Positions 11,601-54,253 of a stretch of 64,000 nucleotides of DNA are shown piece after piece. Made by a program: the position numbers and the translations under genes. Under the pieces are notes generated by a model. It was not told the origin of the DNA, made no database searches, and saw only the letters and a program-made list of their open reading frames with translations. Source of the stretch: Gracilariopsis chorda (taxonomy: Eukaryota; Rhodophyta; Florideophyceae; Gracilariales; Gracilariaceae). The stretch is from contig NBIV01000056.1 in the NCBI GenBank assembly GCA_003194525.1, positions 124,001-188,000 on the forward strand, read 5' to 3'. Numbering within the stretch: position 1 is the first letter of the stretch; the number at the start of each line of letters is the position of its first letter.

Positions 11601-11662
11601 TTACATGCCCTTGGGCAAGAGGTCCTTTCCTGGTCCCATACCCGTGGGAGCATGATCTGGCA

Positions 11663-23352: not shown

Positions 23353-26300
23353 GGGCCGGTTGAAGAATGCCCTTGACAAATCCGGTGCTGAGCTTCATCT
23401 CAGGGCCTGTTCCGGTCAGCCTGCTCCCTCCAGCCAAGTGCCTGGCTCTAAGTTGAACCAGGTTGGAGTCGTTACGGTGCACCCGGGAGAAGGGGTTGAA
23501 GACCTCGTTGCTACCACAAAGCGTACGGCGGATGGCGCCCCAGTCGCCAAACAAGCTCGCACGTACGGGACAATGGACATGTCGGCGTTGCTACACCCAG
23601 ATGGTAGGCATCGAGATAACATAGAGGCCTTGAAGCCGACCAAGGCGCATCGCAAAACTGTCTCAAAAGCAAAGAAGCCCGTGAATCGGAAGCAGACTAG
23701 TAAGGTTCGACTTCAGGAGCACGCCGGAAAGTACAATGTCGTGGAGGAGCTTGCTAACGCCTCCACGGGCATCACATTTGGACAGCTCATCCGTGGAGAT
23801 GCAGATGACGCCAAGAAAGATATTAGACGCATCTTGTCGGGAAGGACGGGCCGGAAAGTAGCGGTGGCACAAACCCTACGACCCGTGAAGAGGCTGAAAG
23901 TAATACCGATCAAGGTCTATGGTACAGTGGCTCAAGCGCTTCTGGACTCGGGAGCAGTGCCAAACCTGATGTCGGCCGAACTGTGTCAGCGCCTCTCTCT
24001 GGAGCCTGCTCATACCCCAAAGAAGATCACTACGGCCGACGGCGTTTCTTCGAACGTCATAGGCGAACTACGGCAGATTCCATTCAAGTTTGGTCCTGTC
24101 CGAGTTCCTATAGACTTTCTCGTCGTAGATGGAACTCCCTTTGAAGTGATAATTGGGTTTCCAGCTCTCGAGACGATGCAGGCCCGACTGGAGCTGGGAA
24201 ACCAGGAGGTGACGTTGAACCTTGACGGAAAACCAGTCACCCTGGGTCTCGACTACGAACGCTCGGACCTGGAAGACCTCATCGCATGGTCAGACACGGA
24301 TAGCGACGATTTTACTTCAGACTCGGATGCGGCTCCAGACGAGTCGGAGTCTGACGAGGAGGACCTAATCGCTGCCTTCGCCAATGGCACCTATGTCACC
24401 TCTCCTTTCCCCGACGGTTACGAAGAGAAAAAGTACCTAAACATAGACGAGGCCGATAGTGAAGGAGGCGGAGTACATAATGTCCTGGTCGTTGAGATGA
24501 AGCGAGACAATACCGAGGGAGATGCCCAGCAGGATTCTCCTTCGCTTATCAACGGAGACGATGTTCCGGGATACATGCGATCTGAGAGGGTACAAGGAAA
24601 AGTAGTTTTCCGTGATCGGTGTACTAATCACGTCGGGAGCCATAGCATTCATGAGGAAGGTGGGAGCGAAGGTTAAAGGCGGTACGAGGATGCAGTGGAG
24701 GAAGACGACTCCACAGAATCGTCGGGTCATTCGGTTCCTCCCGACCCGACGTTATACATCCCCATCAGAGACGAAACAGTTTTGCTCCTGGACTCTGGGC
24801 CCGACCAGCCGAGTGAGAGCCTGAACATTCTGGTATATCGTCGCTTCCCACCGCTGCAGCCCGGAGATCCACTCCCGATTGATTCTAGTGCGCTACCAGT
24901 CGGGGGAAGATTTGTCATAATAAGAGATGAAAACAATGGACCTGTGCTTACATACAATGCCGACTCACAGGAGGAGCCGGTACCTGTACTGCTTCATAGG
25001 GGCCCTAGTCGAGGAGACGGGAGAAGAATGCACGACAACAGTGAAGATGGGAGCGGGCCAAACTCTTCGTCATTCCAGGCAGATGTATCAGAGAGGGATG
25101 GCGAGAATGGGGATCAAGGGGAAGAACTCGTGTATACGGACTCGGATGCTACCGCTGAAGAAGGTGGCGAAGAAGAGCTCCCTGATCTCCTGGTAGAGGA
25201 CATGAATAACCCTGAGTCAGAGTACGCCGAAGTGATACGAAAGGAAGAGGAAGGCCTCGAGCATGATGGGTGCATCCTGGACAGGTTAACCAACCTCCAC
25301 GCAACAGTGCAAGGAGAGATTGCAGATGCTCTCCAAGACTTAAGAGTAGTAGCGTGGTCCCTGGACGACCTGCATCCCTCGGATGTTCCTATCATGCACG
25401 AGTTTTTGCTGAGCAACGATGCGCCAATATCGTCATCAGTCCGCCGTCTTCCACCAATGCATGACAAGGTTGTCAAGCAGGAAGTGGAAAATATGTTGTC
25501 TGCAGGAATTATCACCCCCGCCCGCTCGGCGTAGTCATTCCCAGTCGTTATTGCCACAAAGAAAGATGGCCAGCCGCGGTTCTGTGTGGACTATCGTACT
25601 CTGAATAAGAGAATGAAAGCGGATAGGTGGCCACTCCCTCATATGGAACAGATCTTCGACGACCTCAGAGGAAATTCTTTCTTCACGACTCTGGACCTTT
25701 TCTCGGGGTACTGGCAGATTCGCATGTCCCCAGAATGCAAGGAAATGACTACATTCGTCTGCCGACAGGGAACCTTTCAATTCGAGGTAATGCCTTTCGG
25801 ACTTATGAATGCCCCAGCAACGTTCCAAAGAATGATGAACACCATCCTAGACGAGCATGAGTATGTCAGAGTCTATATCGACGATGTTGTCATCTTCTCG
25901 CGTACACTGGAGGAACGTATACAGCATATCACGAATGTGCTACAGACGATCGCCATACACAGACTTAAGCTGAAAATAGCTAAATGCAGCTTTGCGCAGT
26001 CCAGTATTTCATTGCTAGGGCACGTCGTGGACAGAGAAGGTGTATCGGTGGACCCGACCAAGGTAGAGGCCATACTCAAGGCACCAGAGCCGAGGACGGT
26101 GACTGAGCTGAGAAGTTTTCTCGGGCTCGCGGGGTATTACAGGCGCTTTATACGCAATTTTTCGGGAATTGCAGGCGTACTACATGCTGCAACCTCAAAA
26201 AAGAAGAAGTTTACCTTCACGGATGAAATGCTCGTGGCATTTCGGGCGCTTAAGGAAAAGCTCACCAGTCCGCCGGTATTGAGGTTCCCAGACTTCAGAG

Positions 26301-27922
26301 CGCTTTTCCGCGTCGAAACGGATGCCTCATCTGTTGCCGTAGGCGCGGTTCTGTCACAGAAGAAAGAAGATGGGATGCTCCATCCCGTTCAGTTCGCTAG
26401 CAGGACGATGAGCGAGGCCGAAAAGAGGTGCTCCGTATGTGAAAAGCAAGCTCTGGCGGTGGTTTTCGCCCTGAAGAAGTTTCGTATTTACCTACTCGGA
26501 GCCGCTCCGTTTCAGCTGGTTACTGATCACCAAGCACTGAGCTATGCGTTCAAGAAGAAAGACGTGCACGGCCGCCTGGCTCGCTGGCTCGACCTCTTTG
26601 CCGAGTACGAGTTGGACATCGTGTACAGGCCTGGCGCTCGGAACTCTGCTGCTGATTACCTCTCACGTTATGCTGACTGCAAAGAAGCCGCAGATCAGGC
26701 CGTTGAGGTGCTGAATGTGCAGTATGCAGGGTAAGTTCATGGGCTGGAGCCCTACTACGCCAACATTGCACGCCACATCAGCGGCATGCCTTTCGAAGAG
26801 CCCGACACCAAGTTGAGGATTGCAGTAAAGAGAAACTCAGGAAAACTTTTTGTCTGGGAAAGAAGATTGTTTCAAAAAACGCCTGATGGCTTGCGTGCCG
26901 TTCCATCCGTTGAGGAGCGTGAGCCATTGCTAAGGATGTTTCATGACGACATGGGACATTGGGACTTCGCGGCTACGGGAAAATTTGTCACGGATCGATT
27001 CTGGTGGCCTGGACTCATTGCAAAAATATCGAATTACGTCAAAAGCTGCAAGGAATGTCAACTATCAAAGCCTCTGACATCCTACCAGGCCGGGCAGCGT
27101 TTTCCGTTGACCGGAATATTTCATGTATTTTCTTTGGATTTTGCTGGCCCTTTCCCAGTCAAAATGGCCGGAAACAAGTTCATGCTCGTTGGGGTGGAGC
27201 ACCTGACTGGCTGGCCTATAGCCGTGGCCACCCCAAGCTCTACGGCTGCAGTGGTGCTGGATTTTATCAGGACCCAGATCATTGACCCCTTTGGCTTTCC
27301 CCGTGTAATCGTATCGGCCAATGCCACGTCGTTCATGGCAAAAGCGGTGCAGGAGTTCGTTGAGAGCAAGGGGATCCAATGGGAACCGACTCTTGCATAC
27401 GCCCCTATGTCGAACGGGCGTGCTGAGAGAATGGTCGGCACTATTAAACATTCATTGGCAAAGGTTGTCACAAGTGGAAATATGCAGTGGGATGAAGCGA
27501 TACCAAAAGTTTTGTACGGATATAGACGCCGCAAAATGAGAGAAGGGCATTCACCCTTTGAACTCCTTTACGGAACAATGCCACGCATGCATCCCTCCGA
27601 TCCGGTCACTTTGCTTCGTGTTTCTACTCCGCTTCATCGTCGGGTGGAAATTTTGGCGGCGTTAGCACACCGCGGTCAACGAGTTGTATCGCTACCAATC
27701 CGCGAAGATAACAAGAAGTACGGACACAGGGTTCGGGTAGGGGATCAGGTGTTGGTGATGCGTGGAAAGGCTCTGAACCCGAACGTGAAATGGCCTGCGT
27801 TCAGATCAAAGTATTACAGACCCTGCCGTGTAGTCAAAGCTAAACACCCACGCTACGAACTCATGTCAGAAGGAAACCACTTCACTCGGGAAGGAATTCA
27901 CGCACGCCGCCTGATGCTTTAA
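23309..27922 (+). pseudogene. Pol polyprotein (protease, RT, RNase H, integrase) with three stops
   Basis: One frame, +1 relative to gag, runs from the second zinc knuckle to 27922. It contains: protease with ALLDSGAVPNLMS near 23940 and the later VIIGFPALETM; an acidic spacer (about 24280-25400); RT with FCVDYRTLNKR, FTTLDLFSGYWQIRM, MPFGLMNAPATFQRM and an intact YIDDVVIFS; RNase H with FRVETDASSVAVGAVLSQ and RNSAADYLSRYA; integrase with a zinc-binding region ending SCKECQLSKP, then LDFAGPFPVKMAGNKFM and SNGRAERMVGTIK. In-frame stops stand at 24674 (TAA), 25532 (TAG, where relatives have Trp) and 26732 (TAA). The second integrase acid is lost: VIVSANATSF, where the family has S-D-N-G. Confidence 0.9.
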
Positions 27923-28000
27923 AACCCACGCCAACCTCACTCATCATCCTGCGTCGTCGTACATGGTCGGAAGTGCTGTACCGATACAGACAGGAAAAAC

Positions 28001-28522
28001 ATGCGCGTGAATATGGTGCTTCACCATGAGGAAGAGGAGTATATGGTAGATTTGGGATCCAACCCGATCGTATTACTGATGATGGTCAACTACGGCCTTT
28101 GCGACCAAGATGATAACCTGCAAATGCTTTTCGTTGCTGGAAGACCAATATCTGCCTGGCTCGCACCGCTTGGTGAACCCGGGCATGTTCGTGAGAAGGT
28201 TGTGTGGAACCTTCTGCATTTGTGTTTGTCAATCTACAAGCTTTATGGACTCTATCTCAGGCCGAAAACCTTTCAGACGCTTCTGTCGTTGATTGATCAT
28301 ATTCACACCGCCATTGGACAGGTTGTCGGTGTTGAGTTCGTAACTTATCTCTATCATTTTGTCGTGGGACAGGACGGACACTTACCGCCAGAAAAGACGT
28401 ACTCGCGTGAAACTACAGAATTCTTGGCGCAGTTAAGGAGTGGCCGTCAGTTCGTGCTAAGCTATGAGCCAGATCAAAACCACATGGACATACCATTCAC
28501 CTTCAGTTTTCGCCCTGTCTAG
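28001..28522 (+). CDS. third ORF of the young Ty3/gypsy element, unknown
   Basis: A 173-codon intact frame starting ATG 28001, 80 bp after pol and ending 66 bp before the 3' LTR. The protein has an acidic start (HHEEEEYMVDLGSNP), mixed hydrophobic-helical segments (VVWNLLHLCLSIYKLYGLYL, TFQTLLSLIDHIHTAIGQVV) and a hydrophilic C-terminus. No signal peptide or membrane anchor is obvious, so I do not call it env-like. It uses Lys/Arg and codons much as pol does. It stays open while pol has three stops. Function unknown. Confidence 0.6.
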   Translation: MRVNMVLHHEEEEYMVDLGSNPIVLLMMVNYGLCDQDDNLQMLFVAGRPISAWLAPLGEPGHVREKVVWNLLHLCLSIYKLYGLYLRPKTFQTLLSLIDHIHTAIGQVVGVEFVTYLYHFVVGQDGHLPPEKTYSRETTEFLAQLRSGRQFVLSYEPDQNHMDIPFTFSFRPV

Positions 28523-28588
28523 AAGCCACATTCGACGTCAGTCTATTGGTTCTTGGTCGCCCGGGGAAGCGACCGATAAGGAGGGGAG

Positions 28589-29365
28589 TTTGAAGTGTGT
28601 TTTACGCGTGTCGTGCACACGTAAATTTTACGGAAGACACTTTGCAACGTGTATGGGTGGGTCGCTGTTGGCAGCAAGGAGGGACTGCCTGTTGCCACTA
28701 ATTAATATTGACTACGCCTACAGAACCGTCCAGTTGAACCTGGAGTGTTCTTTTGTACTCTATATTACTCTTACGGAACTCTTCACCGCTGTCGGTCATG
28801 ATATTATTGCTTACCGCGGGTGCAATTGTTGGCTACAAAAAGGGCTTCCAACGTCAAGAGTTGTGGTTTGTGGTCGTAGCTGGATATCATGTCTATTCTT
28901 ATGAGTAGAAATTATGCTTACGCTGTAGGCTAGACACGCAAGTATATGCGCTGCGTATGCGCGTGTAGTCTAGCCCTCCATATCTTGGTGTTTCTTGGCC
29001 TTGGTTTCTCCTTTTTTTCTTTAAGTTTTTATCTGTTTGATCCTGGAGAAGTGCCTTTGGATCGTTCATATTTATTTTTATAATTTGTTTTGGGCTGCTG
29101 TGTTCACCGAGAAAAGGATTCGTTGATCAAGCCATTCAGCGTGAGATTTATTGTGGATTAATCGCAGGTGTTGGACTTGGAATGGCTCTGACTCGTCCCA
29201 TTAATCGGTTGTTGTTTACGTTTGTCTACTCCGGGGGTTTGAAGGCCCACAGTTGGTCATTGTTGGTGGCTAGCGCTCCTTGTTTTGCTACGAAGAGGCT
29301 ATTGTTTTTGTTTTATTTTGGCTTGTAATCGCCGCGCTGTTTTTGCCACCAAACTGGCGTCTTCA
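28589..29365 (+). repeat. 3' LTR
   Basis: It is 777 bp and collinear with 21730-22506. Visible differences include TT for CA near its start, T for G three times, C for T, G for A, and CTG for the ATG at the Gag start. The first two bases read TT instead of TG. Confidence 0.95.
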
Positions 29366-35991: not shown

Positions 35992-37080
35992 CTATGGTCG
36001 CCAGGTGCGAGCAAGCGAACTGTCTAAATGCGGTTCGATACGACCATCGAATAACCCAAACACTCCACCTGTGTGAACAAAGAGAATTCTTCGGCTGCTC
36101 CTTAGCGGGCTCTTGCCCTTTTTCAACTCAGATATCATTCCGTAGATCGCCTTCAGTGTGTACACTGGGTCTAGCATGATGCCAGTGGATCGTGAAATCT
36201 GCAAACCCAACTCCAGCTCTTCTTCTGTACTTCGGGCATAACCAAGTCCTTTGGCTTCGGTAATGTGCAGGATGTCCTGTGCATCAACTTCTTGATCAAG
36301 GCCTAGTTTGGCAAGCATTTCGTTCAGATGGCCGTAGAAGTAAGCTGGGGTATCGCACACTGTCACCGCATGGACGCGAACGGGCCTTCCGGCGAGATAA
36401 TTGCCGATAGCAAGACCGCTTGCCGTACCACCTGATCCCACAGCTACAACTATATCTGTGAATTCCCTAACCCCTTGAGTTAGCAGTTCATTGAAAGCAT
36501 CAATATATCCCCACACGCCGATTTCGTTCGATCCGCCTATGCCAATCAGGTACGCGTTCTTTCCTTCTGCTGCAAGTTTCTCTTGCAGTAGTCTCATCTT
36601 GGGTAGCAAACCCGCCAGATAGGATACGGGTCGAACCAAATGCACTTGTACTCCGAGCATTCTGTGAAACAGAACATTGCCTTTTGATCCAAGTTTTTCG
36701 GGATGCTCATGCTCTCTAGTGCGCAGAAAGACATGAGCTTCGAGTCCAAGTTCCTTTGCTACAACCGCTGTTGCGCGGGCATGATTTGACTGCACACCCC
36801 CAGCGGTAATGACTGTATCGCATCCCTTGGAAATTGCATCAGCGATTAGAAACTCTAGCTTTCGAATCTTGTTCCCCGATGTTCCCGCACCGGTCATGTC
36901 ATCACGTTTGATGTAAAACTGTATATCGGGTGGGATATCGGGAACAGCACTGTGAAGGTTCCAGGTGTGGACTGGAGTTGGGCGCATGGACAGATTGATT
37001 TTAGTTGCGGGCGCAAAGTGTGCAATACGCTCTGCAAAGGGGGGCACCTTATAGGGAGACGGAGCTCTCGTGAAGTTCAT
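35992..37080 (-). CDS. D-cysteine desulfhydrase / ACC deaminase family PLP enzyme
   Basis: 362 residues, cytosolic-type, one exon. The family uses pyridoxal phosphate to deaminate small amino acids: D-cysteine to pyruvate, sulfide and ammonia, or ACC to 2-oxobutyrate. The sequence has FYIKRDDMTG, the PLP-lysine motif GAGTSGNKIRKLEFL, GGVQSNHARATAVVAKELGL, the phosphate-binding loop AVGSGGTASGLAIG, and LDPVYTLKAIYGM with FVHTGGVFGLF near the end. Length is close to the bacterial D-cysteine desulfhydrase (about 330), with a ~30-residue N-terminal extension. I chose the Met at 37080; an in-frame Met 16 codons earlier is possible. Choice between D-cysteine and ACC as substrate cannot be made from motifs alone. 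Divergent from NOL10. Confidence 0.9.
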   Translation of the reverse strand: MNFTRAPSPYKVPPFAERIAHFAPATKINLSMRPTPVHTWNLHSAVPDIPPDIQFYIKRDDMTGAGTSGNKIRKLEFLIADAISKGCDTVITAGGVQSNHARATAVVAKELGLEAHVFLRTREHEHPEKLGSKGNVLFHRMLGVQVHLVRPVSYLAGLLPKMRLLQEKLAAEGKNAYLIGIGGSNEIGVWGYIDAFNELLTQGVREFTDIVVAVGSGGTASGLAIGNYLAGRPVRVHAVTVCDTPAYFYGHLNEMLAKLGLDQEVDAQDILHITEAKGLGYARSTEEELELGLQISRSTGIMLDPVYTLKAIYGMISELKKGKSPLRSSRRILFVHTGGVFGLFDGRIEPHLDSSLARTWRP

Positions 37081-37701
37081 GGTTGGTCGTACAAATGCCG
37101 GTGCGCAATGGTTGGAAATCATGTACATAACTCGATTTGGGATATAGTAACATAGAGCACACTTGGACGAGCATTCGCTACCTTGGTGTGTTTGGTGCTT
37201 CGAGAGTCTCAGGTGCCTGCTTCAAATGTGGTCTTGAGATTGCAGGCTCCAGATCTGATGCGAAGAGTTTGAAGCCTAGTGACACCGAAATTCTATCTGT
37301 GGCTATGAAGAAAGCGCGAATATGATGTGGAACGGGCGAGCTTAGGAACGCACTTGAGCTCACGCCATTTCTAGAAGAGGCTGCATGACCGCCAATGCAA
37401 GGAAGCGGGGGACGTCGTCACTACTTTCAGAACAATAGCTCATACGAAGAAATGCCTTGTGAAATGTGCACAAAAATATCAAATAATCTGCAATTCGAAA
37501 AAGCACGAAATGATCCTATAGAACTTCATATCCTTTGCGGCGGCGTTGATGCACAATGTACGTGACACGGGCCGCTTTTTCAACAACGTCGTGCACCTTG
37601 TCCCGCAAGAAGCCTACTCTACAGTCAGTTTATTCGGCTTAATAGAAGGCTAAAAGAAGTCAAGAGGTTCATTCAAAGCTGCAGAAAACTGTGCTTGAAC
37701 C
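37081..37701. promoter_or_regulatory. 620-bp divergent intergenic region
   Basis: It separates the start codons of the PLP enzyme (minus) and NOL10 (plus). No gene is seen inside. It should contain both promoters. No specific element was recognised. Confidence 0.4.
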
Positions 37702-39801
37702 ATGGTGCGCCGGGCACCAGGGGCCTATGACGCCAAGGTTTATGACGTTTCAGGCCGACGTGCAGTCTCTCTCCAAGCAAACTTGTCAATAGGAGCACGC
37801 GCCACCGCCGCACAAAAGCGCGCACGCAGAAAGCTAGAACTCCAAGATACGAATACGGACTTGATTCAGGATTTTGCGTTCCCCACCGTTTCCCAGCGAA
37901 TTAAGGTCTCACCGGACGGGCAGTATGTTTTTGCGTCAGGAACATATCCGCCGCAAATACATGTCTATGACACCGAAGACCTCTCTCTCAAATTCAAACG
38001 CCATGTGAACACAGATATAGTGGACTTTCAAATACTGGAGTCAGACTGGCGCAAGTTTGCCTTGCTTACCGCCGACAGATATGTTGATTTACACTCACCT
38101 TTCGGAAGCCATTACAAAACGAGAGTTCCTCGATTCGGACGCGATCTCATGTTGCACAAAGGAACGTGTGATCTTTTCGTTTGTGGTGACGGTGCCGACG
38201 TTTGGCGATTAAATCTGGAACAAGGCCGTTTCCTGGCTCCAATTACTACCGTCTCTGGAGAGACAGGAGGGAACAATGTGTGTGGCATAAGCCCAGTTAA
38301 CTCACTGCTCGCCTTCGGCGGGGAAACGGCCATATTGGATGTATGGGACCCCCGAGCAATTGGAAATACACAGAAGCCTGCAGGTACTCTGGATGTGAGT
38401 GCGGCATTAAGGGAGCACGAACCGTATGCAAATGGTGATATGCAAATCACAAGTCTGCGATTTGATGAGTCTGATGGGGTGACACTAGCCGTGGGTTGTA
38501 GTACAGGATACACCTTACTCTTCGACCTACGCTCACCTCGTGCCATGCTTGCTAGGGACCAGGGGAATGGGCTTCCGGTTCATAGTATCCGACTGCACGA
38601 TGATGCAAAACACTGCTTGACGGCCGATGCACGAAGCGTAAAAGTGTGGAACAGACGAGATGGGATGAACATGGTGGCTATCGAGCCGGATGCAGACGTG
38701 AACCACTTGTGCGTGATAGGCAGTTCAGGAGTTTTGTGCACCGCTGTAGAAACGCAACGAGTGAAGACTTACTACATTCCAGCGCTTGGCACTGCGCCAA
38801 AGTGGTGCGCGTTCCTCGACACATTCACTGAAGAACTTGAAGACGGAAAGCGAATCACAGATTCGGACGCTCTAGATGGAGCGGATGTGGAGGAAGTTTA
38901 CGAAAACTACAAGTTCGTTGCACATGACGAACTGGAAGGGCTTGGACTTGGTCACCTGATTGGTACAGAGCTTCTAAAACCGTACATGCACGGATACTTT
39001 GTGCATCAAAAACTGCACAGACGGGCCGTTGAAGTGTCCGAACCATTTGCGTACGAACGGTATCGCAAGGAGAAGGCGAGGGAAAAGGTGGAGGCGGAGA
39101 GGGAAAACAGAATCGGCAAGTCGAAAGCGAGGAGACCAAAGAAGGTGGATGTTAATCAAAAGGTTGTGGAATCGTTATGGTCAGAGCGAAATGGAGCGAA
39201 GGCGGAGCGACGAATTTCAGTGTTGGAGGATGACCGATTCAAGGCAATGTTCACTAACAAGGATTATGCAGTGGATGAAGATGCAGAGAGATTCCAGTTC
39301 CTCAATCCAGCGGCTGCCGCGCGACGGGACAGCGTGTCAAAACAAGACGATGATAGTGATTCTGATGAGGAATATTTGCAGCAATTTGAACTAGTGGATG
39401 ATGGGCACGGTAATGAGAAGAACGCAAAGAATGGAAGAGCGCTTACGTTTGACGACGATGAAAGCGATGTTGACGATGATGACGATGATGGCGTTGCTGA
39501 CGAGGATGAGGGAGTTACGAATGACACAAATGCAAATGGCATCCGGTCCACGAAACGAAAGCGATCTGATTCCGGGCCCAAAATGTATGAGATTGGGACT
39601 GTCGGTGAAGTGACCGGACGCAAAGCTGTAGCGGAGTTACGAGGAGTGAACCGGGGAGTGACGAAGAAGATTCGCGAGGAAATCTCTCTCGGGACAAGAA
39701 TAAGCAGGTTGAGAGAAAAAGAAAAGCAAAACGAGGAGAAATCGGAGAGACGGGGCTCGAGAGGCGGTAGAACTCACAGAAGCAGAAAATCGAAGAGGTA
39801 G
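37702..39801 (+). CDS. NOL10: NOL10/Enp2, nucleolar ribosome-biogenesis WD protein
   Basis: 699 residues, one exon, start in ACCATGG context. Nucleolar component of the small-subunit processome needed for 18S rRNA maturation. The N-terminal propeller is collinear with human NOL10: VYDVSGRR, LIQDFAFPTVSQRIKVSPDG, YDTEDLSLKFKRH, HYKTRVPRFGRD, CDLFVCGDGADVWRLNLEQG and WDPRAIGN. The middle has the family-specific LGLGHLIGTELLKPYMHGYF and HQKLHRRAVEVSEPFAYERY. A NUC153-type motif DDRFKAMFTNKDYAVDEDAE follows at about residues 511-530. The C-terminus alternates an acidic stretch (about 590-615) with basic clusters (KRKRSD; RTHRSRKSKR), typical of nucleolar proteins. Length fits the family (about 690-710). 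AATAAA occurs nine bases after the stop. Confidence 0.97.
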   Translation: MVRRAPGAYDAKVYDVSGRRAVSLQANLSIGARATAAQKRARRKLELQDTNTDLIQDFAFPTVSQRIKVSPDGQYVFASGTYPPQIHVYDTEDLSLKFKRHVNTDIVDFQILESDWRKFALLTADRYVDLHSPFGSHYKTRVPRFGRDLMLHKGTCDLFVCGDGADVWRLNLEQGRFLAPITTVSGETGGNNVCGISPVNSLLAFGGETAILDVWDPRAIGNTQKPAGTLDVSAALREHEPYANGDMQITSLRFDESDGVTLAVGCSTGYTLLFDLRSPRAMLARDQGNGLPVHSIRLHDDAKHCLTADARSVKVWNRRDGMNMVAIEPDADVNHLCVIGSSGVLCTAVETQRVKTYYIPALGTAPKWCAFLDTFTEELEDGKRITDSDALDGADVEEVYENYKFVAHDELEGLGLGHLIGTELLKPYMHGYFVHQKLHRRAVEVSEPFAYERYRKEKAREKVEAERENRIGKSKARRPKKVDVNQKVVESLWSERNGAKAERRISVLEDDRFKAMFTNKDYAVDEDAERFQFLNPAAAARRDSVSKQDDDSDSDEEYLQQFELVDDGHGNEKNAKNGRALTFDDDESDVDDDDDDGVADEDEGVTNDTNANGIRSTKRKRSDSGPKMYEIGTVGEVTGRKAVAELRGVNRGVTKKIREEISLGTRISRLREKEKQNEEKSERRGSRGGRTHRSRKSKR

Positions 39802-41875: not shown

Positions 41876-42889
41876 GTTTGCTTTGCTATTGCTCAATGTC
41901 AATTGCTGAATTGCCTTTCTTTACTTAGTTCGCGTATTCGCTATTATCTGCTTATTAGCATCGCTTAAGCTATTTTAAACATTTTCACAGCTGTACAACA
42001 TTAAATCGTATCTCATATGACTCATATTACATAAATTAGCAAGTCAAGGACTATAAAACTTTCAAAAATAGATTAAGCGGAGATGAAGACACGAAGCTTT
42101 TAATTCTTTCGCCCAACTTCACTCAATGCAGAGAACGTTCTGCTTCTAAGCCATGTAAATAGTGGTGCAATTTTCATTCTTTTTAAAAAAACACTTTTGA
42201 CAACAATTACATTATATTATAAGCTCTAAACCTGCAGAAGCGTTAATATGCTGTTTTTGTTCTTTATGGGCATACATTGACTAAATGCAATGCTGTGGTA
42301 GAACTTATCGTAATTCATTCTCAATATCTCAACAACTGAAGTAAATCGCTGGATAATCCTCATGAATGACAAGTTCTCGCTACTCCGTTACACCATTGTT
42401 AACTACCAACTCAAATATTGTTAATAGCTGTTGCATGCTCCTACCCTGCATTAGCCGTTTTGCGCTCACAAAATGAGATTCCAAGATGTAGTAGAATGGT
42501 GTAAAACGTTTACGGAGAGATCCGAATGTATAATCCATTTCGGTCTGGCGCGTGTCTCATTTCTCAGGCTTTGCTCTGCTAGCCCTTCCTCAACCCCAGA
42601 GAACGCTGAGTAGCTGGTACACAACAACAAAGCGGATTCCATGTAACACTTTTGCGCCATCCAGAAGATCTGGTTACATCTCACCCTCCCCGTGTTCTTT
42701 ATTTTTGGTGATAAAGGACGGTAAGAGCGAGCTGGGGCCCGTTTGTGTTGTAGATCTCAGCGTACTTCAAGAAAACCCCTGTGAAACCATTCAGATCCTT
42801 TTACAGGCGGTGTTGCTGCTTCCTAAAATTCCTGGTTTCCGATGAAAACCCAGTGTAGTTTCACCACAGATTTTGTGGGAACCTCCATA

Positions 42890-43653
42890 GGAAGTGGAAT
42901 GCACACAGAGAGGAATTTTTGGTACTTGGTTGATTTCCGGAATGTTTCGGTAATGTAGCCATTGCATGAACTAAGGCCAATAATAGTGGATTTCATACAT
43001 GGGAAACGGAAGAGTCAATTGGCGGTGGGCCACAGTAGTGGGCATGAACCACCAAAGTGGACTAATTTAGTTACTTCTATTTATTATTTTTACACCCATT
43101 TCTGGGATGCTTAGTACTTAGGCGCCGGCAGGTTGCCGTCGCACCAGTAACCCTTCCCCAAGAAGGGACCCCAACCTGGGGAATTGGCTCTAGACCTCAC
43201 CGCCTTCGCGTGTTCTCTACTCCTCTTTGGAGGGAAGCACCGTCGCATACGGGAAGTCTAACCCCCTTGCCTATCTAAAGGACCCGAATATTCAGATTGT
43301 TATTCCAGCTGCCTTGTTGTTCGCCTTGTATAAGGTTTATTTACTGGCACTGCCGTTAGTCTTCGTCACGACACTCGTGACTCAGCTCCCCCTTATTTTT
43401 CCCTTTACAGGGTGGCATTCCCGTTACCCACGGCTCAAGTTCTCTAGAAAACGAACACCCCCATACACTGCTCCTGCGGAGACTCGCTTCTTGCCTCAAT
43501 CTCCCTGCGCAAGTCGCGACGGGTTGCCTCGGCCTTACAACCCAACATAGTTGTGCCACTTCTGGGAGGGCCCTAGCCAACTGGGCTCACCTCTAACGAG
43601 GAAAGATCCCGAACATCTTTCGGTGCACTCCCACTTCCGGGCATTGGAATACA
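42890..43653 (+). repeat. 5' LTR of the 11.4-kb chromovirus
   Basis: It aligns with 53509-54253 through blocks such as TTGGTACT.GGTTGATTTCC, GTGGGCATGAACCA, AGGCGCCGGC and CACTCCCACTTCCGGGCATTG. It starts GGAAGTGG where the 3' copy has TGAAGTGC, so the terminal T has probably mutated. It ends TACA. Confidence 0.85.
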
Positions 43654-43790: not shown

Positions 43791-45478
43791 GTGGAGCCTG
43801 CAACTACGCGCAGTCGCTCCCACAATGGTGGAGATAACCCCGAAGTTCGGTTCGTTTCTCGGATCTCGACTAGGGCTAAATCCAGCCATGCTGGGGATGC
43901 TTCGTCTAAGACTCCAAACCCACCCCGAGAACCCCGGAACTTCACGTCGACCCCGTTATTGAATGCCGTGGATGGTGCTCATCCGGCTCCAGCCGTAGCT
44001 GCCGCCGCACCTGAACCCCGTCTGACGGGCGATAACACCCCCAAAGGGAATTCCCTGGAATCTCAGGTTCACGCTTTGTGGACCGCCCACGATACCCTTG
44101 TCGGGGAATTACAAACCCTCCGTGAGGTGGTGATGGACACATCTACAAAGGTGGTCGCAGAGGATCTCCGTATCTTATAGTCCGATGTCAACTCTATTTT
44201 AGAGAGTTTTGGGCAACCCGCCGCCTTCATAGAAGGAGTTGACTCTCGATTTGATCTAGTTCGTGCCCGTCTGGAGACGTTAGGGCTGTTTATCCTCATG
44301 GATAAACCGTCCCCGGATGATCCGGCTCCAGCTGCTTCACACCACGACCAGCATGCTGGAAGAAAAAAAGCCGCTATAAGCGTAAACACAAACGAGATCA
44401 CTCGGATTCTGATTCTGCATCATCATCGGATTCATCCCGAAACGGTTCAGATGGTTCTAGCTCCTCGGACTCCGATTCGAAGGGCGAGAAATGAGGCCGT
44501 TCTTCCCGCTCTAAGCGGTCATCCACCACCCAAGGTGGGATTCGCACCCGCAGCAAGGGGAGAAGACACCCTGGCCTCAGGGAACTAAAACCGACGAACC
44601 CGTTATATCGGAAACTATTGTCCTACCGGTACTATCGGCTCGAAGATTCCTCTTTAGGACGTACACCCCGTGGTATGGGTAAATTGAAAGAGTGCATAAA
44701 ACGTATGCAACTCTCACTGCGTAACCAGTATTTTACTGGAGAAGACCCAATTAAGGTGTTGGACTTTCTTTCCCGCTTTGTAGCGGAAGCCGATATCCTC
44801 GGAATGAATGAGGGACAAGCCTATTTGGCAGTACCGTATTTCTTAACGGGAGTGGCAGAGGACCAGTACACCTCTGTCAGAGGATCATCTCGTGCCGCGG
44901 AGGGAGGAGTAACCAGCTTGCCGGAGGCGGTTTTATATTTATTGCGCTCCTATGCCACCAATACCGCATTCAGGAGGCAACCCTCGCTTTGCGAGATACT
45001 CGTCAGCGCTCAGGCGATATTGAAACCGATTACTCGGTACGCCTTAACAAGGCCTTCCACCTTTGTGGGAATGTATAACCCGCAGGGGAACGTTGTACCA
45101 TGTTCATCGATGGCCTTGACCCGGCAATCCGGAGTCTTGTTACTCGTTACCGGGAGGACAAGCGGAGGTTCACCTACCTCTAGCTTGTTCAACATGCTCG
45201 AGTGGAAGGGAAAGCACTTCGTGCAAGAACTCCGAACCCTCTGTCTAGGCCCACCAAGGCGTTGGGGCTGGAGAGTGACTCCTCATCGCCCTCTCTTTTT
45301 GCGGACAGAATCCCCCAACAGGGATACGACACTGTGCATTTTGCACAGGGAGATGGTGTGTCTATACCAACCACGGACTTACCGTCAACAACGGAGTACA
45401 CGTTCTAAACGGCGCAACACAACCCCGTATTGTACGTGGGGATCAATCGCGTTCAGTCGCAACGAGTCCTGTTTATGA
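43791..45478 (+). pseudogene. gag of the 11.4-kb chromovirus, broken
   Basis: Starting near 43791, one plus-strand frame passes a TAG (44178) and continues through helical sequence (VHALWTAHDTLVGELQTL; FGQPAAFIEGVDSRFDLVRA). A basic then Ser/Asp-rich stretch follows (KHKRDHSDSDSASSSDSS) after a shift. The capsid core at 44618-44990 includes QYFTGEDPIKVLDFLSRFVA and AYLAVPYFLTGVAEDQY, a typical retrotransposon gag fold segment. No clean CCHC knuckle was read. It is interrupted and non-functional as it stands. Confidence 0.7.
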
Positions 45479-45938: not shown

Positions 45939-46691
45939 TTGGGAGAGGCGTCTTCAGAGATGAGCCTGTTGACACCCGAGGCGTCGCCGCCTCGCTCCCC
46001 TGTGAAAATCTTTTCAAGGAAGGACACAGCCGACGCAGACTCTGCACACCTTTCTGTGCTGCGTCGCCCGTGGATACGGAGTAAAAACCCCAGGATCCCG
46101 GATAGAGTTTTGGTCATAGCCAAGTGCAACTACAAGGTTTACGCCGACCTTGGCCTTGACATCCCTTTTATGGTGAGGTTTCTTACAGTCCTGGACACAG
46201 ATGCAGGCCCCAACTGAATCGTGGAGTCATTGCTATCCCCGCAGGTGCGGTCTTGTATCTGTTCCGAAACGTTTCTCGACGTCGCAGATGCAAACAACAA
46301 TCCGTTAAAAACGGTGTGTACCGTCGACTTAGTCGTGCGGTTGGGCACCTCCATGGTGAAGCTTGACTTTATAGTTTGTCCGTCATTACCCGCTCCAGTC
46401 ATACTGGGATGTGATTACTGCGACAGATTTGTCGACGCAATCAGGCCCCGCCTTAGGCGTGTGCAACTCGACGACGGATCCTCAATCCCTATTGTCCGTC
46501 GCCCGCTGAAGCGTGCTTCGCAGAAGCAAGTCCCACTACCTGCTGCGCAGGAAGCACCGCCCGCGTCTCGCGAATCCATCAAACTTCGAATCGCAGCCTC
46601 GGTTTCTATACCGCCTGAGTCCCAAATCTGGGCGCAAGTCAATTGCCATCAACACGGTATTCGCGTTATTCAACCTCTGTCCTCGCTATAA
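45939..46691 (+). pseudogene. aspartic protease region of the 11.4-kb chromovirus
   Basis: One frame with a single TGA at 46215-46217. The active-site segment reads RFLTVLDTDAGPN, where gypsy proteases have D-T-G-A, so the catalytic Gly is Asp here. Downstream are LGTSMVKLDFIVCPSLP and VILGCDYCDRF, corresponding to the family's second conserved region (I-L-G-x-D/F). Degenerate. Confidence 0.75.
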
Positions 46692-47016
46692 GATAAATAC
46701 CAGCTCGCGCTGGCAAACGGAATTTTTCACGTTACCCCGGATGCTCCTTTCCGGATACTCGTTGCCAATCTTGGCCAACGCCCCCAGTATCTGGTAAAGA
46801 ACCAAGTAATTGGAAGCGTCACTCCACACCCCCATGGGGTGCTCCCGACGAAGATGACGACCGCCGATGTTCTCATAATTGCCACCTCTTCTGAGGAAGC
46901 CACCCCCACCACTGACAAACTATCGTCAAAGGAGGGAGAGGAAACCGTTGTTTTAACGTCGAACACCCCGAATAACTCGGAACCGACGGCCACACCTGTA
47001 TAACAGGGACAATTTT

Positions 47017-48480
47017 ACAGCGCGTTCTGACCGAGTGGACACCATAAAGGCACTCGAACATATAGACCCCGGCCATGTGCCGGAGTCACACCGCGACAAA
47101 CTCCGTGCAATGAAACGGGAATTTACCACGATGTGAGATGGCTCGCTCGGCGAGATTAATGCTACGGAACACCGGATAGATTTGTTACCGGGTGCACGTC
47201 CGATGTCACAACCGCCTTACAGGGCAAGACCGAACGCTCGAGAAGAGGAGCAGTCCCAAGTGGACAAAATGCTCCGCGCAGGTGTGATAGAGCCCGCTCA
47301 ATCACCCTGGGCATCCCCAGTTGTACTGGTTTGGAAGGGTGACGGAACCTGGAGGTTCTGTGTCGACTATCGCCGGCTCAATGCCGTTCCGGCTAGTGAC
47401 ACATATCCCATCCCTCGTATGGACGAGTGCATCGACTCCCTTGGAGACACTACCGTGTTCACGGCTTTGGACGCCAATTGGGGTTATTGGCAGTTCCTTT
47501 TTAGACAGCAGGATCGCGATAAGACCACGTTAACCTGCCACGCAGGTTCGTACCGCTTCAAGCGGATGCCTTTTGGTTTGACCAACGCTCTCGCTACCTT
47601 TCGACGTGCAATAGATATTCTATTGAACCGCTTCAAGTGGTAGAGCTGCCTGGTCTACCTGGATGATATTATCATCTTCTCCAATAATATGGACGACCAT
47701 CTCACCCCTGTCAGGGACGTTCTGACCGTGCTCCGTGATGCGGGAATCACCCTCAAGTTGAGTATCTGGGACATATCATCCGTCTGGGACGGTTAATGAT
47801 CGAGAAGGCTCGAGTCAATTCCCTCCTTGGGGCTAAGCAACCCCGCACTCAAACGGAACTCCGCACCTTTTTAGAGCTGGTCAACGTCTACCGACGGGTT
47901 ATCCCGAATTTTTCGGATATCTCGGCACCTTTGAACGCGTTGTTACGCAAAGAAAATCCCCCACAATTGGGACAATTCACGCCCGAGCAATTGGAAGCGT
48001 TTAACTCCTTAAAGAAGGCTGTCACGTCAGCACCTATCTTATCTTTACCCAAACTGGGATTCCCGTACTCCGTGGACACTGACTCGAGCGACTACCAAGT
48101 TGGTTGTGCTCTTTTCGAAGCCACCCCAAAGGGGGACCGAAGGCCAATTGGTTATTGGTCACGCTTGCTCAATGTCCACTAGCGAAATTACTCTGTGTCG
48201 GAGAAAAAGTGTCTTGCCGTCATGTGGGAGCTTTCCATCCTACGCCCCTATCTTATGGGAGTTCATTTTACTGTATACATGGATCATTCCTCTTTGAGGT
48301 TGTTAATGAACATGTCCGATCCCTCTGGCCGCCTTATGCGCTGGAGACTCCGCTTTGCGGGATATGACTTCCAAGTCATATATAAAATGGGGGCGCTCAA
48401 CACCCAGGCCGACGCTTTGTCACGTTTACCCACAAATGGGGAAGCATTCCCAACGGAGGATGACGACATTCCATGTTTCA
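47017..48480 (+). pseudogene. reverse transcriptase and RNase H of the 11.4-kb chromovirus
   Basis: RT: SPWASPVVLVWKGDG, RFCVDYRRLNAVP, FTALDANWGYWQF, YRFKRMPFGLTNALATF and, after a TAG at 47641, an intact LVYLDDIIIFS catalytic box. After a shift near 47760 the frame continues with the thumb (AKQPRTQTELRTFLELVNVY) and RNase H (YSVDTDSSDYQVGCALFEAT, then a TAG at 48180, then KKCLAVMWELSI and NTQADALSRLP). Similarity to plant and fungal chromovirus RT is very clear. Confidence 0.9.
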
Positions 48481-48622
48481 TGGCTAAAGAACCGGATAGT
48501 GGAAGTTCGAGGAATGGCCTGAAGACTAAGATGAAGATGCTGACTTTTACAGCTTACTCGCATCCCGCAAGACCCCTGAGAACCCCTTACTGGGTAGTTT
48601 TGTACGGGATTCACCGGAGGAA

Positions 48623-49769
48623 TTGATCCGAGAACAACTCGGTGACCCTTTCTGTATGAGTATTCGTGCCCGTTTAAACGGTAGCGAAGACCTCTCGTTC
48701 GAGGTGAACGATAAAAGCTACCTCGTTCGGTTGGTAGAAGCTCGCCCACAGATTGTGGTACCTCATTCCCTGCAGTCGCGGGTGTTACATCTCTCGCACT
48801 ATGCGAAGCTCGGTGGCCACGTAGGTAAGAGCAAGCTCCACCTCACCCTGCGAAGGGCTTTTTACTGGCCCGCCATGGCGGTTGATTGCTAGGCAGCTGT
48901 GTGGGTTTGTACCGAATGCTCGAGGAACCGGGTGAAGCTACATAGGAACGCGAAGAAAATGAAGTAATTCCATGCTAGAGCGCCACTCGAGTTTATCGCA
49001 ATCGATACTCTCGGACCTCTCCTCACTACAAAGAGAGGCAACAAGTTCTTACTTGTGATCACCGATCGCTTTTCAAAGCTTGTTCGGACTGTCCTTTTTC
49101 GGAGGATAACCGCTTTCACGGTGGCCCAGGCTCTGGTAACGCACTGGATGTTTGTCTACGGTCCTCCTGTGGAGGTGATCTCCGATAACGGACGGCAGTT
49201 CGCGTCCGAGTTCTTTCAGACGTGAAGAATTTGTTCACGATTACCTACCATCCCAGTGTAATGGGCAAGTCGAACGGTTCAACCAGACTTTGTTGGCCTC
49301 TCTCCATTCCTACGTTGCTGATCACCCCAAAACTTGGGAATTGTATGCAGATGCTCTAACATTTGCATACAATACACAAGTTCACCGGACTACAGGAGTG
49401 TCACCGTTCGAATTGGTTCTATCTCGTTCACCCCCGCCTGTGGCGTTAGAATCCCAAGCCACCTCGGACAATTTCCCATCTGTGGGTCGCTACCGTCAGG
49501 AATGGAAGCAATGGCTTGCTGAACTGGTCTCCTCAGCGCGGAAGTCTATGGAACGCGCGCAAGCCGCGTATAAACAGGATTTCGACGCTCGTTTACTAGA
49601 TAACGCTCCCCACATACGGGCTAATACCTACGTCTTTATACGTAATGAATATTATAACCCGGAACGGGAGAAGCGTCACAAGCTTTCGCCTGTGGCGGAT
49701 GGACTGTTTAAAGTGGTATCCGTTAACTCCGACACTGTGGTAGTGGAAATTGGCAAGGCACACAAGTGA
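48623..49769 (+). pseudogene. integrase of the 11.4-kb chromovirus, broken
   Basis: Zinc-binding region: HLSHYAKLGGHVGKSKLHLT then, after a TAG at 48889, VWVCTECSRNRVKLH. Catalytic core: EFIAIDTLGPLLTTKRGNKF (first Asp), VEVISDNGRQFASEF (second Asp), and after a shift near 49250 NGQVERFNQTLLASLHS (Glu). The triad is retained. The tail has the GPY/F-type module with HKLSPVADGLFKVVSV. The frame then meets a TGA at 49767 and continues into the long tail. Confidence 0.85.
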
Positions 49770-51440
49770 ATTTCCCGCGATCGTGTTGTACCTGCCCCTC
49801 CACCCTCATCTGAGGTCGTCCTGGAAACAGGGAAACCCGTCTCGACGGACTCAGCAACGCCGGAAACCCCGGGACTAAATAGACCGACTATTCTGCCACA
49901 CCCTACTCGAGGCTTCTCAGATTTACCGACTTTGACGGAACCCCCGGCTCGGCCGGATCGTTCAGGTCCAAACGAACCTTGCTCTACTCCTAACACTACC
50001 GCCCCTTCGGCGCGCATTTACACCCGCCATGCGGGATATCCTACTATTACTCCCCTTGCTCCATGTAAGGAGGGGGAGGGTACCTATCGCCACGCTGGAA
50101 ATTTATTACCGTCGTAATGGGGTTTGAGCCGTGAAACACGGAAGGTCGATGAAGAATTGCAATCCCCCACACAGGGTTCCGGAACGACGCAGTTACACTG
50201 TATGATACGGGAGAGTGGACCGACATCGCAGTCCGTACTCCTGAACCAGGGCAGTTCCCTGAATCAGGATAGCGATATCGTTTCGCAGACCCCTCACCAG
50301 GTTGTAGTCGCAAAACCGTTGTCGACGGAATTTCCCGCCAAAACGGATTCGTCAGCACCATTCACACCGCTGGTAGCAGGCAACTCACGCCTTGGAAAAC
50401 CAGCAACGCTGGAAAGTGAAAAGACTCTCTTGAGGGAGGAAGGCAGGAATGCACATCTTGCAACTCAAGTCCCTGGCTCTACAGCCCCGGAGTTGAGAAC
50501 CGTTCATAACGGGAATGTTGTCCGAACCTCGGAGACCGAAGTGCCGAAGTCTCCGCGCAATCGCGGTAATATACCGAGCGTCTCGGAAAGATCTGGCGTC
50601 GTTGCCAATGGTAAACCGGTCGTCCCAGATAAAGCACCTCTTGAGGTAGACATCACACCTCAATTAAAAGCAAAGTCCCCGAACAGGGTGTCCACGGTGC
50701 CAGCCGTACACGCCCCATCACGGAGTTTGAGGCAACACACCGGAGCACCGGAAATAACCGCCGGATACTGGGTGCCAACACAGCAGTGCCCGGCTCAGCG
50801 GGACAGTGTAAGGCCCAATCCAAGGGAGGCGGAACGCAAGGAGACGGTTCAGAGCCACATGCCGTGGGAGTCACGTGAACGCACGCAGATTGTGCGCCCT
50901 TCACCAATCACCGCGCGACGCGGAAAGCCCCACCAGGGAGTGACCTCCACAACTCCGCCAAAGCGGCAAGATGTCCGCAAGCTCATGGTTCGACCGGACC
51001 ACGGTCAACATGGGACGGAGGACCCCTGCAAACTAGCGGTATGACCCAATTACCGCAGTACGTGGAAACCGTTCCACGAAGACACCCTCTTGAGTCATAT
51101 TATTCCGCACTCTGCGCCGCATCCTCCAAGCGAAGCCGGCACGTTGCATCCTGACGCCCCCCTGAGGAGAAATATCCTGTCCATCGGGCAACTCCTGAAA
51201 AGCGAGGTCACCATAACACGGCAAGGCCAGCAGGTATACAAACAAGAGTTTGTGATTGACCGAATCGTCAGGAACACCTGGAATCAGGAATGCATTCTAA
51301 GATAATGCTTCCGTTGGTATGGATATGACCCAAGCTGGGACACCATGGAACCCATCCAACACCTCCCTCGTTCGAAGGTGGTCCAATATCACCGCAGCGC
51401 GGATACCGCAGAGCCAGCTACGCTGTGCAACGACCAAGTG
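49770..51440 (+). pseudogene. long integrase tail ending in a chromodomain
   Basis: The integrase frame continues without a shift from 49290 to about 51440, broken by stops at 49767, 50115, 51042 and 51303. Roughly 490 residues of Pro/Ser/Thr-rich, poorly ordered sequence follow integrase. Then comes a chromodomain: KQEFVIDRIVRNTWNQECIL and, after the 51303 stop, CFRWYGYDPSWDTMEPIQHL and PRSKVVQYHR. This has the Tyr/Phe-Val-x-x-Ile entry, the W-Y-G-Y-D-P-x-x-D-T-x-E-P core and the final helix. The chromodomain is thought to direct integration. The length of the spacer is unusual. Confidence 0.75.
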
Positions 51441-51633
51441 GGATAAAAACGCCACGAAGCCCGGGAAGTTAGGAAAGAAGGAGTACACCCTCTTTTGTAT
51501 GGACTCTGTCAAGGACGGGAATGAAAGAGAAAACGCCGTTCTAAACGGGAAAGTTTACTCAGGAGCCTCGCACCCCTGTAGGATGCTAAGCTACATTACT
51601 GGCTAAGCCAGGGAAAGAGACCAGGACACTGGA

Positions 51634-53452
51634 TTAGAGGTTCGACCCCTCCCCATCGTCCGGGTCGTGACCATTCGCAAGGCGGTAAGCCAAGGAATCC
51701 GCCATGGCGGTGACGTCACCCAAAACCTCGGCAGCGCTTAAACCCCCTCCGCGGAGGAAGCTAGCAATGATATCTTTTTCATTGACTAAACCCCCGCTGG
51801 GGAGTGAAGTCCCGGCGCTCGCCGTGGAAGGACTGGGAACCGGAGGCACCCCCTCGGGGGATTCGTCTACGACCATGTCGGCAACGTCTAGTTCCATGTT
51901 CCCCGGCTCTTCGGGATCTTTATCGACCATCGGGTCATCCCCGCTATACGCGCGGTAGTACTCATCGGAATCGACGTACCCAATTGGGTGGTCGTCCGGC
52001 ACGTGCCACTGTGCGTCGTGGTGTTCCCTCGCCTCCCCGAAGGAAATCTCCTGGAACTCCCAGGGATCGAAGTAGATGAAGTCCCCTGCAAGGGGTGTTT
52101 TTACCAAGACCCAGACCACCGGTACCGCCGCCGTCAAGGCAACCGCTCTGTTCCAGCGAGACCTCGCGCCAGTCAATACTGTCGATCAAACCTAGTAAAT
52201 GGAGAACTTTTTCATTATTGGCAATACCCCCAAGGGGGACTCTGAGGTCCCGATTTTGAATAGCGGCCCGCACATGCGGTTGGATGAACTAAAATGGATA
52301 CTGGTCATAAACCTCCGCGAGGATATACGCCGCAGGGCGGGCAGCCCACTTGGTTACAATTACCGACCAAAGCCCCGACCGGGGTTCCTGAATCAGAAAG
52401 GAACTGAGGTACGTGAGTGCCGCCGGGAGTTCAACGTAGCAACCCTGGCAGGCTTCATGGAACCTCCACCACTCGGGGAGTGCGACGTACCGACCGTGTC
52501 GGTGAGGCGGAGCAATCCGCTCAATCTCCACGTTTTGATACGGGACAAAGTATCGGAATCGGGATCGCCAGCGCCATTCATGAAAGATGAAGTTTTGGAG
52601 GAAGTTGGACCGGACCTGCCGGGAAAGGTACTAGAATTCAGCCTGAAGTATCGGTCGTTCCCAACACAGGGGTTCTTGCCGTGCAGCGGAGAGGTTCCTC
52701 CACGCGAGGGTTTCGAGGCTGGCCAGGCGTTCGCCGTAACCGATTTCACCGCGCGTGCGGAATAGGCTGACGTCGAAGCCAAAGCCAGTAAACACCGGGC
52801 ATTCGAAAGGCGCCCAGCTCTACCGTTGATATGCACTCTGCACCAGCGCTGCATGAGCCGCAATCGCGGATTCCCCCGAGTTTCTTCGGGTGTGGTGCAC
52901 CGGGATGGCGATTCGATGCCGCCAGTCCCACGACGAGGTGACTAGGCTGGGTAGATCCCTGGGCAAAGTACCGGAACCATCCGCGTAGGCCGTAACCAAA
53001 TCCTCGTTGAGGGCAGCGATGGGATGGAACCACGGCGCAAGCCGGAGCCGAGAGGTGTGACTCTGATTCATCGGATCTAACCTTACAAGGGCGTTATAAG
53101 AAGGCCAAGTCGCCGCCGGGATCAGTCCGGAAGGAGCCACCGCTGGTGGAAGTTGGAACACATGCTGAGACGCCGCGCCAATGTTGGACGGCTGTGCAGG
53201 AGTTCGTCTACCTTGTGGCAAGGGTACCGACCGAAAACCGGTTGTGGAGTTCCCGAAGGGAGTCAGTCTTGGAGGCTGGTTGTTGTTGTTGTTCATATTT
53301 CCCTTCAAAAGGCCTTGATCTGACTGAGTTGAGCAGAAAGAGGAGGAGCGTGCACTTGTGGAAGGCTGGTTCGCTGCTTTTGCAGGAGGTTGTTTCTCTG
53401 ATGCAGAGGCTTGACACGGTGACCCGGAGAAGTTTTGGATTTTATCACCCAT
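51634..53452 (-). pseudogene. conserved antisense gene of the chromovirus, unknown function (copy 2)
   Basis: Read on the minus strand from Met 53452 (MGDKIQNFSGSPCQ), 57 bp inside the 3' LTR. One frame runs to about 52150 with only three in-frame TAGs (near 52820, 52655 and 52289), then one shift, then an acidic C-terminus ending at 51634; about 600 residues. Parts: Ser/Gln/Asn-rich N-terminus (MNNNNNQPPRL), then a core with RLRLAPWFHP, SSWDWRHRIAIPVHH, SRFRYFVPYQNVEIERI, ACQGCYVELPAALTYLSSFL, VTKWAARPAAYILAEVYDQY and SLEQSG, then the tail PLAGDFIYFDPWEFQEIS and an Asp/Glu-rich region. It is collinear with 12226-13647 over the whole core. It is convergent with pol and does not overlap the chromodomain. 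Plant Tat-lineage elements such as Grande and Retand carry antisense ORFs at the same site, but I see no similarity to a known protein. Confidence 0.75.
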
Positions 53453-53508
53453 TTTCCGCTGGTATTCGCCCTCGTTCACGGTTGCTTTCCCGACTAAGGA
53501 GGGGGATA

Positions 53509-54253
53509 TGAAGTGCAATGCCATCAGAGAGGGATTCTTGGTACTCGGTTGATTTCCCGAATGTTTTGGTAATGTAGTCATTGCATGAAATACGACCACT
53601 AATGGTGGATTTCACACGTGGGACACGGAAGAGTCAATTGGCGGGTGGCAACAGTAGTGGGCATGAACCAACAAAGTGGAGTAATTTAGTTTATTATTTT
53701 TATTATTTTTACACCCATTTCTGGTATGGTTAGTATCTAGGCGCCGGCGAGTTGCCGTCGCACCAGTAAACCTTCCCCAAGAAGGGACCCCAACCTGGGG
53801 AATTGGCTCTAGACCTCACCGCCTTCGCGTGTTCTCTACTCCTCTTTGGAGGGAAGCACCGTCGCATAAGGGAAGTCTAACCCCTTTTTCTATCTAAAGG
53901 ACCCGAGTATTCGGATTGTTATTCCAGCTGTCTTGTTGTTCGCCTTGTATAAGGTTTATTTACTGGCACTGCCGTTAGCCTTCGTCACGACACTCGTGAC
54001 TCAGCTCCCCCTTACTATTCCTGTTACCCACGGCTCGTGTTCTCTAGAATACGAACACCCCCATACACTGCTCCTGCAGATACCCGATTCTTGCCTCAAT
54101 CTCCCTGCGTAATTCGCGACGGGTGGCCTTGGCCTTACAACCCGACATAATCGTGCCACTTCTGGGAGGGCTCTACCCAACTGGGCTCACCTCTAACGAG
54201 GAAAGCTTCCGAACCTCTTTCGGTGCACTCCCACTTCCGGGCATTGCACTACA
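53509..54253 (+). repeat. 3' LTR of the 11.4-kb chromovirus
   Basis: It starts TGAAGTGCAATG after the purine tract and ends GCACTACA. It is the partner of 42890-43653, with scattered substitutions and small gaps, so the insertion is considerably older than the 21.7-29.4 kb one. Confidence 0.85.

Follow-up and report, generated by a model that had tools for sequence, protein, structure and literature searches.

The antisense gene in the window

The window, that is, the whole 64-kb stretch of DNA analysed here, carries two ORFs that are damaged copies of one gene of ~600 codons (aORF), which lies antisense between pol and the 3' LTR of its element (Table 1). The first-pass annotation, made from the letters alone, had proposed two antisense ORFs beside pol, at 51634-53452 and at 12.2-13.6 kb, with a shared protein, and this was confirmed: open copies of the two main families are 55-56% identical to each other. 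As for the two window ORFs being genes, the gene is real and opens at the ATG at 53452, but neither copy in the window is intact, and of element 1 only a fragment is left. The host was rightly suspected to be a red alga, as BWQ96_03215 of the florideophyte Gracilariopsis chorda is 100% identical over residues 1-491 to a protein of the searched genome, from which that genome is taken to be G. chorda's.

In element 2, the protein encoded from the ATG at 53452 matches open relatives starting at residue 1. The reading frame meets its first stop at TAG 52822-52820, followed by two more in-frame stops and a frameshift between 52145 and 52101. The LTR pair of this element is 88.9-89.2% identical, and its reverse transcriptase shares 86.5% identity with that of family B (tblastn). 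In both window copies the aORF starts ~36-54 bp inside the element, counted from the edge of the 3' LTR and outside the LTR itself, rather than 25-60 bp inside the LTR as initially described. At the LTR edge of element 2 lies a purine-rich tract, AGGAGGGGGATA, probably the polypurine tract, a name given from its sequence; a tract resembling it, with differences, precedes the aORF in nine other copies and is most altered in L042.

Element 1 is a fragment consisting of one LTR and part of an aORF. The aORF is cut off at 12239, where it adjoins another LTR-bearing element, copia-type as judged by eye from its ORFs, and a search within the 64-kb window found no gag-pol match for element 1. Elsewhere in the window, the young Ty3-type element at 21.7-29.4 kb leaves ~660 bp between its integrase ORF and 3' LTR, too short for an aORF, and this integrase ORF has no chromodomain match in Pfam.

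Table 1 Features of the 64-kb window
Feature	Position	Strand	Remarks
aORF of element 2 (family C)	51634..53452	-	Degraded; 3 in-frame stops and 1 frameshift; open relative L042:1156-2982
5' LTR of element 2	42887..43653	+	Pairs with 53506-54253
3' LTR of element 2	53506..54253	+	aORF start ~54 bp from LTR edge, reading away from LTR
Purine-rich tract AGGAGGGGGATA	53497..53508	+	Edge of 3' LTR of element 2, strand opposite aORF leader
pol of element 2	46152..51443	+	Broken; convergent with aORF (tblastn)
Part of gag region, element 2	44504..45224	+	70.9% DNA match to family A L010, which has a gag frame
aORF of element 1 (family A)	12239..13635	-	Residues 1-466 of ~607; ATG at 13635; one TAG at 13242-13240
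Sole LTR of element 1	13671..14572	+	902 bp; 96.7% to a family A LTR
Neighbouring LTR element	6437..12163	-	LTRs 6437-6946 and 11653-12163 (83.1% identical); element 1 ends beside it
Ty3-type element	21728..29365	+	Young; LTRs 98.8% identical; 173-aa sense ORF after pol
DDE_1 endonuclease match	2651..3703	+	Pfam 43.8 bits; probably a DNA transposon remnant
NOL10-like nucleolar protein	37702..39801	+	Probable host gene
Pyridoxal-phosphate enzyme	35992..37128	-	Probable host gene

Families, lineage and protein of the aORF

We searched the 91.3-Mb genome with the 332-aa open piece of the 51634-53452 ORF and scored the best 121 of 1512 candidates, a sample biased toward whole copies and not random. 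Within it, the matched stretch was free of stops in 36 of 62 family-A-like copies and in 56 of 59 others. The aORF is present in at least six families (A-F) of one lineage in this one genome, with open frames of 595-638 codons in families A-E and 643 codons from stop to stop in F. One family-D copy (L040) has ACG in place of the ATG that the other (L035) retains.

The elements were read in pieces. In family B (C50, C23 and C110; L016-L019, L022-L023), the LTR pairs are 99.5-99.9% identical and pol is a single frame of 1792-1794 codons; ~190 bp off, a convergent 595-codon antisense ORF adjoins the 3' LTR. The 728-codon gag frame is open in L019, while L017 carries a stop in it and L023 a break of the frame. 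Family A is built alike: its LTR pairs measure 902-905 bp and are 97.8-99.0% identical, and its pol, interrupted in L009, L013 and L014, has an open frame of 1789 codons in L011. The aORF also occurs in families C (L042), D (L040, L035), E (L041) and F (L020/L021), where the copies of C, E and F that were read, together with D L040, have a broken pol. The aORF is open in elements outside the window whose LTR pairs are up to 99.9% identical. Several family-B copies, some beside an open aORF, share recurring short pol frames (298, 234 and 142 codons), which suggests amplified pol-defective sublineages. At L051 (C41:9000-11750), an aORF of a different family (49% to A) shares its strand with the neighbouring family-A pol end, perhaps through a nested insertion.

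The pol of these elements (L018, L022, L011) shows the Pfam order RVT_1, RT_RNaseH, Integrase_H2C2, rve. Consistent with the chromodomain of the first-pass annotation, PF00385 was found at the C-terminal end of pol in two family-B elements (39.7 and 38.3 bits, cut-off 25.1); it scored under the cut-off in A (19.4) and E (24.3), and Pfam gave no match in one D ORF fragment. Across RT-RNaseH, the aORF families are 68-85% identical to one another, lowest on average for F (68-76%), whereas two other Ty3-type elements in the window reach 36-41% and 25-27% to them. Judged by these identities, which are taken within the window and genome, the aORF families are one chromodomain-bearing Ty3/gypsy lineage in gracilariacean red algae. 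Between integrase and chromodomain, pol includes ~400 residues that evolve fast between families and have no Pfam match (residues ~1290-1690 in L018:4620-9998, minus strand).

The two family-B elements L018 and L022 are 91-100% identical over most of the compared stretch and 70-87% over L018 5500-7750. Given that L018 is 92-98% like family D L040 over ~6160-7500, families B and D have exchanged sequence, as would be expected if both were active together.

The aORF protein has ~600 residues. Comparing B with the other G. chorda families, the N-terminal 100 residues are variable and of low complexity (24-56% identity); next come a ~370-residue core (57-77%), a linker that varies and, at the C-terminus, a helical module of ~40 residues (48-86%). 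Seven proteins were scanned for further features: none has a strong transmembrane stretch (top 19-residue hydropathy 0.9-1.7), and three have one nuclear-localisation-like motif each, none of these three being from G. chorda. Homologues were found in G. chorda (BWQ96_03215, BWQ96_05177), in Gracilaria domingensis (FGB62_50g12) and among further protein sequences, at 31-60% identity to B, among the matches scored in searches of ~5.8 billion proteins with ~8000 candidates scored each time. None of 33 pattern matches in viral contigs (IMG/VR) was confirmed as a relative.

In line with the initial failure to recognise a domain, searches of Pfam, NCBIfam and PHROGs returned no known domain, the PDB no sequence match, and neither Foldseek against PDB and BFVD nor VIA-align a fold match. 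The best Foldseek match (E-value 0.14) was dismissed, as were weak Pfam matches to Ral (E 0.03), DUF6127 and DUF6220, far under the cut-off. We also considered and rejected a duplication of gag. For the family-B protein, AlphaFold gave a partial model (mean pLDDT 60.5) that is reliable in just some segments, among them residues 102-199 and 350-420, and a run on the core only was worse (58.3). Considering this low confidence, we claim no fold.

Selection on the aORF and copies that have lost it

The first-pass annotation had proposed that the protein was under selection, and codon comparisons agree. Pairwise dN/dS between families is 0.15-0.34 where dS is unsaturated, with high synonymous differences (pS 0.53-0.76). 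The corresponding values for the RNaseH-integrase segment of pol are 0.07-0.15; among them is the comparison of B L018 with D (0.149), part of which falls in the recombinant tract. A GY codon model on 8 aORF sequences (543 codons) gave an omega of 0.215 (lnL -8587.0), and the model with omega set to 1 and kappa to 2 (lnL -8896.4) was 309 log-likelihood units worse; on 7 pol segments omega was 0.123. Within families omega was 0.35-0.97, on few changes. Across 12 copies, each of the five alternative frames has 5-27 stops, leaving only that of the aORF open, and substitutions between the family-B copy L016 and the family-C copy L042 fall on codon positions 1, 2 and 3 in numbers of 106, 81 and 257. 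At the level of codons, these data show that the aORF is under purifying selection between families.

A putative antisense promoter would lie in or near the 3' LTR. CACGTG occurs ~165-250 bp upstream of the aORF start in 9 of 10 stretches, with AT-rich tracts slightly further up. As these boxes and tracts sit in the LTR, they may serve the sense promoter instead. Within 165 bp past the aORF, families A, B and F have an AATAAA or ATTAAA, a poly(A)-like signal that C, D and E lack there.

Many copies have nevertheless lost the gene. Absence of the ORF from intact members, which had been expected to speak against a selected protein, was found for a sizeable minority of family B. Out of 150 family-B pol ends listed of 1989 candidates, 21 have a frame of at least 1800 codons. 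Twelve of these adjoin a listed aORF and seven have an internally deleted one (C96, C299, C167, C32, C159 and C64 by reading, C23:8389 by its junction), the remaining two being C704 and C149. Because selection between families shows that the aORF matters, its loss argues for a trans or accessory role and not for lack of function.

Six deletion loci (L043-L048), picked for their absence from the aORF lists and thus not a random sample, revealed four different deletions within the aORF region. Two of the four retain just the first 92-122 bp of the region (~12-22 aORF codons) and sequence past its stop, and the other two retain more at both ends. The junctions show a 5-6 bp overlap in one locus pair and ~21-24 bp of unmatched filler in another, as template switching might leave. 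Genome-wide pattern counts for family B, allowing up to 3 mismatches (reversed-pattern controls gave 0), found the intergenic site 536 times, the aORF core 322 times, junction one 127 times and junction two 24 times; 322 and 536 are separate pattern counts rather than paired sites, and both miss diverged old copies.

Two of the deletion copies, C32 and C64, have LTR pairs that are 99.88% and 99.13% identical, each with what appears to be a 5-bp target duplication (GATAC and CTTTG, respectively). In the gag stretch read in each (345 and 351 residues), no stop occurs. These copies moved about as recently as full copies. Since aORF-deleted elements with an open pol transposed recently and repeatedly, the aORF is not needed in cis.

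In family A, a listed aORF lies within 2.5 kb of 58 of 83 pol ends, a lower bound given the incomplete aORF list; of three family-A loci apparently without it, one had a match to the whole region, one an internal deletion and one lay beside an aORF of a different family on the other strand. A DNA search with a stretch across the aORF and the pol end gave spanning matches for all of the best 40 copies, the ones scored out of 850, and is uninformative on losses.

Possible roles of the aORF and comparison with known antisense genes

The combination of long-term selection and dispensability in cis fits a trans-acting accessory protein. That the aORF is a selected accessory gene dispensable in cis is very probable. 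The best explanation overall, which we hold with moderate confidence, would be a protein-coding accessory gene whose product acts in trans and is used by deletion derivatives. In this mechanism, an antisense transcript initiated in the 3' LTR or close to it would serve for translation of the aORF, and the product, a soluble and probably nuclear factor, would aid the expression or replication of the element, e.g., by countering silencing or handling RNA; deletion derivatives would thereby live off full copies. That helping in trans is the right mechanism we regard as plausible, somewhat short of probable. More tentative still is the complete picture, in which the aORF would found a new protein family, the trans-acting helper of a red-algal chromovirus lineage with two tiers: full elements that produce the factor and, living off it, deletion derivatives that have been amplified and in part retain an open pol.

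The deletion derivatives may simply mean that the protein is not needed. They also bear on a self-limiting role, in which the aORF protein would inhibit its own element; copy-number control in other retrotransposons follows a comparable logic. Four different aORF deletions in six chosen loci, two of them amplified, suggest that loss is tolerated or favoured, which speaks for an inhibitor. However, an inhibitor acting in trans would restrain the deletion copies too, so that losing the gene gives no release while full copies exist, and by LTR identity both full and deletion forms include very young insertions. We consider an inhibitor unlikely, and a helper is our first choice over a restrainer, two roles that sequence alone does not separate. 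An env-like gene, with which full elements would pass between cells while copies without the aORF spread inside the genome, would occupy the same site as the aORF. Yet the aORF is antisense, and its proteins have neither a strong transmembrane stretch nor a Pfam envelope match, which makes this reading quite improbable.

The pattern of substitution weighs on two further readings, each of which we rate as highly improbable. Regulatory antisense RNAs are known in retrotransposons, according to the portions of PMC7264820 available, and pairing of an antisense RNA with element RNA could be the important product, the ORF being incidental; a function of the RNA would however not predict changes mostly at third codon positions or an omega far below 1. 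Alternatively, a host gene might have been captured once and carried passively, as the first-pass annotation had allowed. Among the candidates scored, protein searches found relatives only in G. chorda, Gracilaria domingensis and other protein sequences, which fits such a capture, but passive carriage would not hold omega at ~0.2 across families whose synonymous sites are nearly saturated. A host gene is possible as the origin of the aORF. The preferred reading remains that of a selected accessory gene, which may help in trans.

In one genome, ~322 aORF-core sites thus stand beside 151 sites of two deletion junctions of the same family, some with an open pol. Such a mix offers a natural experiment for asking if the element depends on the protein, if the protein works in trans, or if it holds the element back. 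A similar case is that of env-less derivatives of endogenous retroviruses, whose copies lose a 3'-side accessory gene and amplify with the other genes open; the gene lost here differs in being antisense and without envelope features. HBZ of HTLV-1 is a bZIP protein, whereas the aORF proteins, known here from sequence, have no Pfam match above cut-off, and Pfam gave none to bZIP for P0001 and P0002. HBZ and other retroviral antisense proteins are likewise encoded by antisense genes of LTR elements (PMC11963269, in part), and the excerpts of PMC7264820 place an antisense promoter of HTLV inside the 3' LTR.

Antisense extra ORFs at this site are already known. Elements of the Tat lineage, according to the excerpted accounts, carry an additional ORF, antisense and placed between pol and the 3' LTR, that most copies of a family have and that recurs across species (gene23 of Grande, RIRE2, TRP28 of Retand; PMC11963269, PMC7264820); the site is the same in aORF elements. 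The first-pass annotation had treated this as a plant Tat feature, yet Boty of the fungus Botrytis has an antisense ORF there too (PMC7264820, in part). Of the Boty gene brtn, known from Botrytis cinerea and also Sclerotinia, the extracts of PMC8365987 note that the latest B05.10 annotation lacks it; like the aORF, it is an antisense extra ORF, a likeness of site and orientation. The role of antisense genes in LTR retrotransposons is described as unknown in the parts of PMC11963269 and PMC7264820 available.

Several differences set the aORF apart. Retand belongs to a non-chromovirus lineage while aORF elements have a chromodomain, and the aORF proteins P0001 and P0002 lack a match to Transposase_28 (PF04195; Pfam, E up to 1), in contrast to TRP28. 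The host here is a red alga, and the survey in PMC11963269, as excerpted, covers Viridiplantae, as does that in PMC6317226, whose available text describes OTA (non-chromovirus) and SIRE elements as often having extra ORFs. An antisense ORF in a chromodomain element of a red alga had been thought undescribed, and no paper on one in a red-algal element was found among the matches listed in the open-licence PMC literature. Chromoviruses themselves, however, were already reported from red algae (PMC3605345, in part), and Rhodophyta are mentioned in the literature excerpts for a different accessory domain. From what we looked at, the protein family, the host group and the deletion lineages appear to be new. 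With the aORF, antisense genes of this kind extend to red algae and to elements with a chromodomain, a distribution that suggests independent acquisition.
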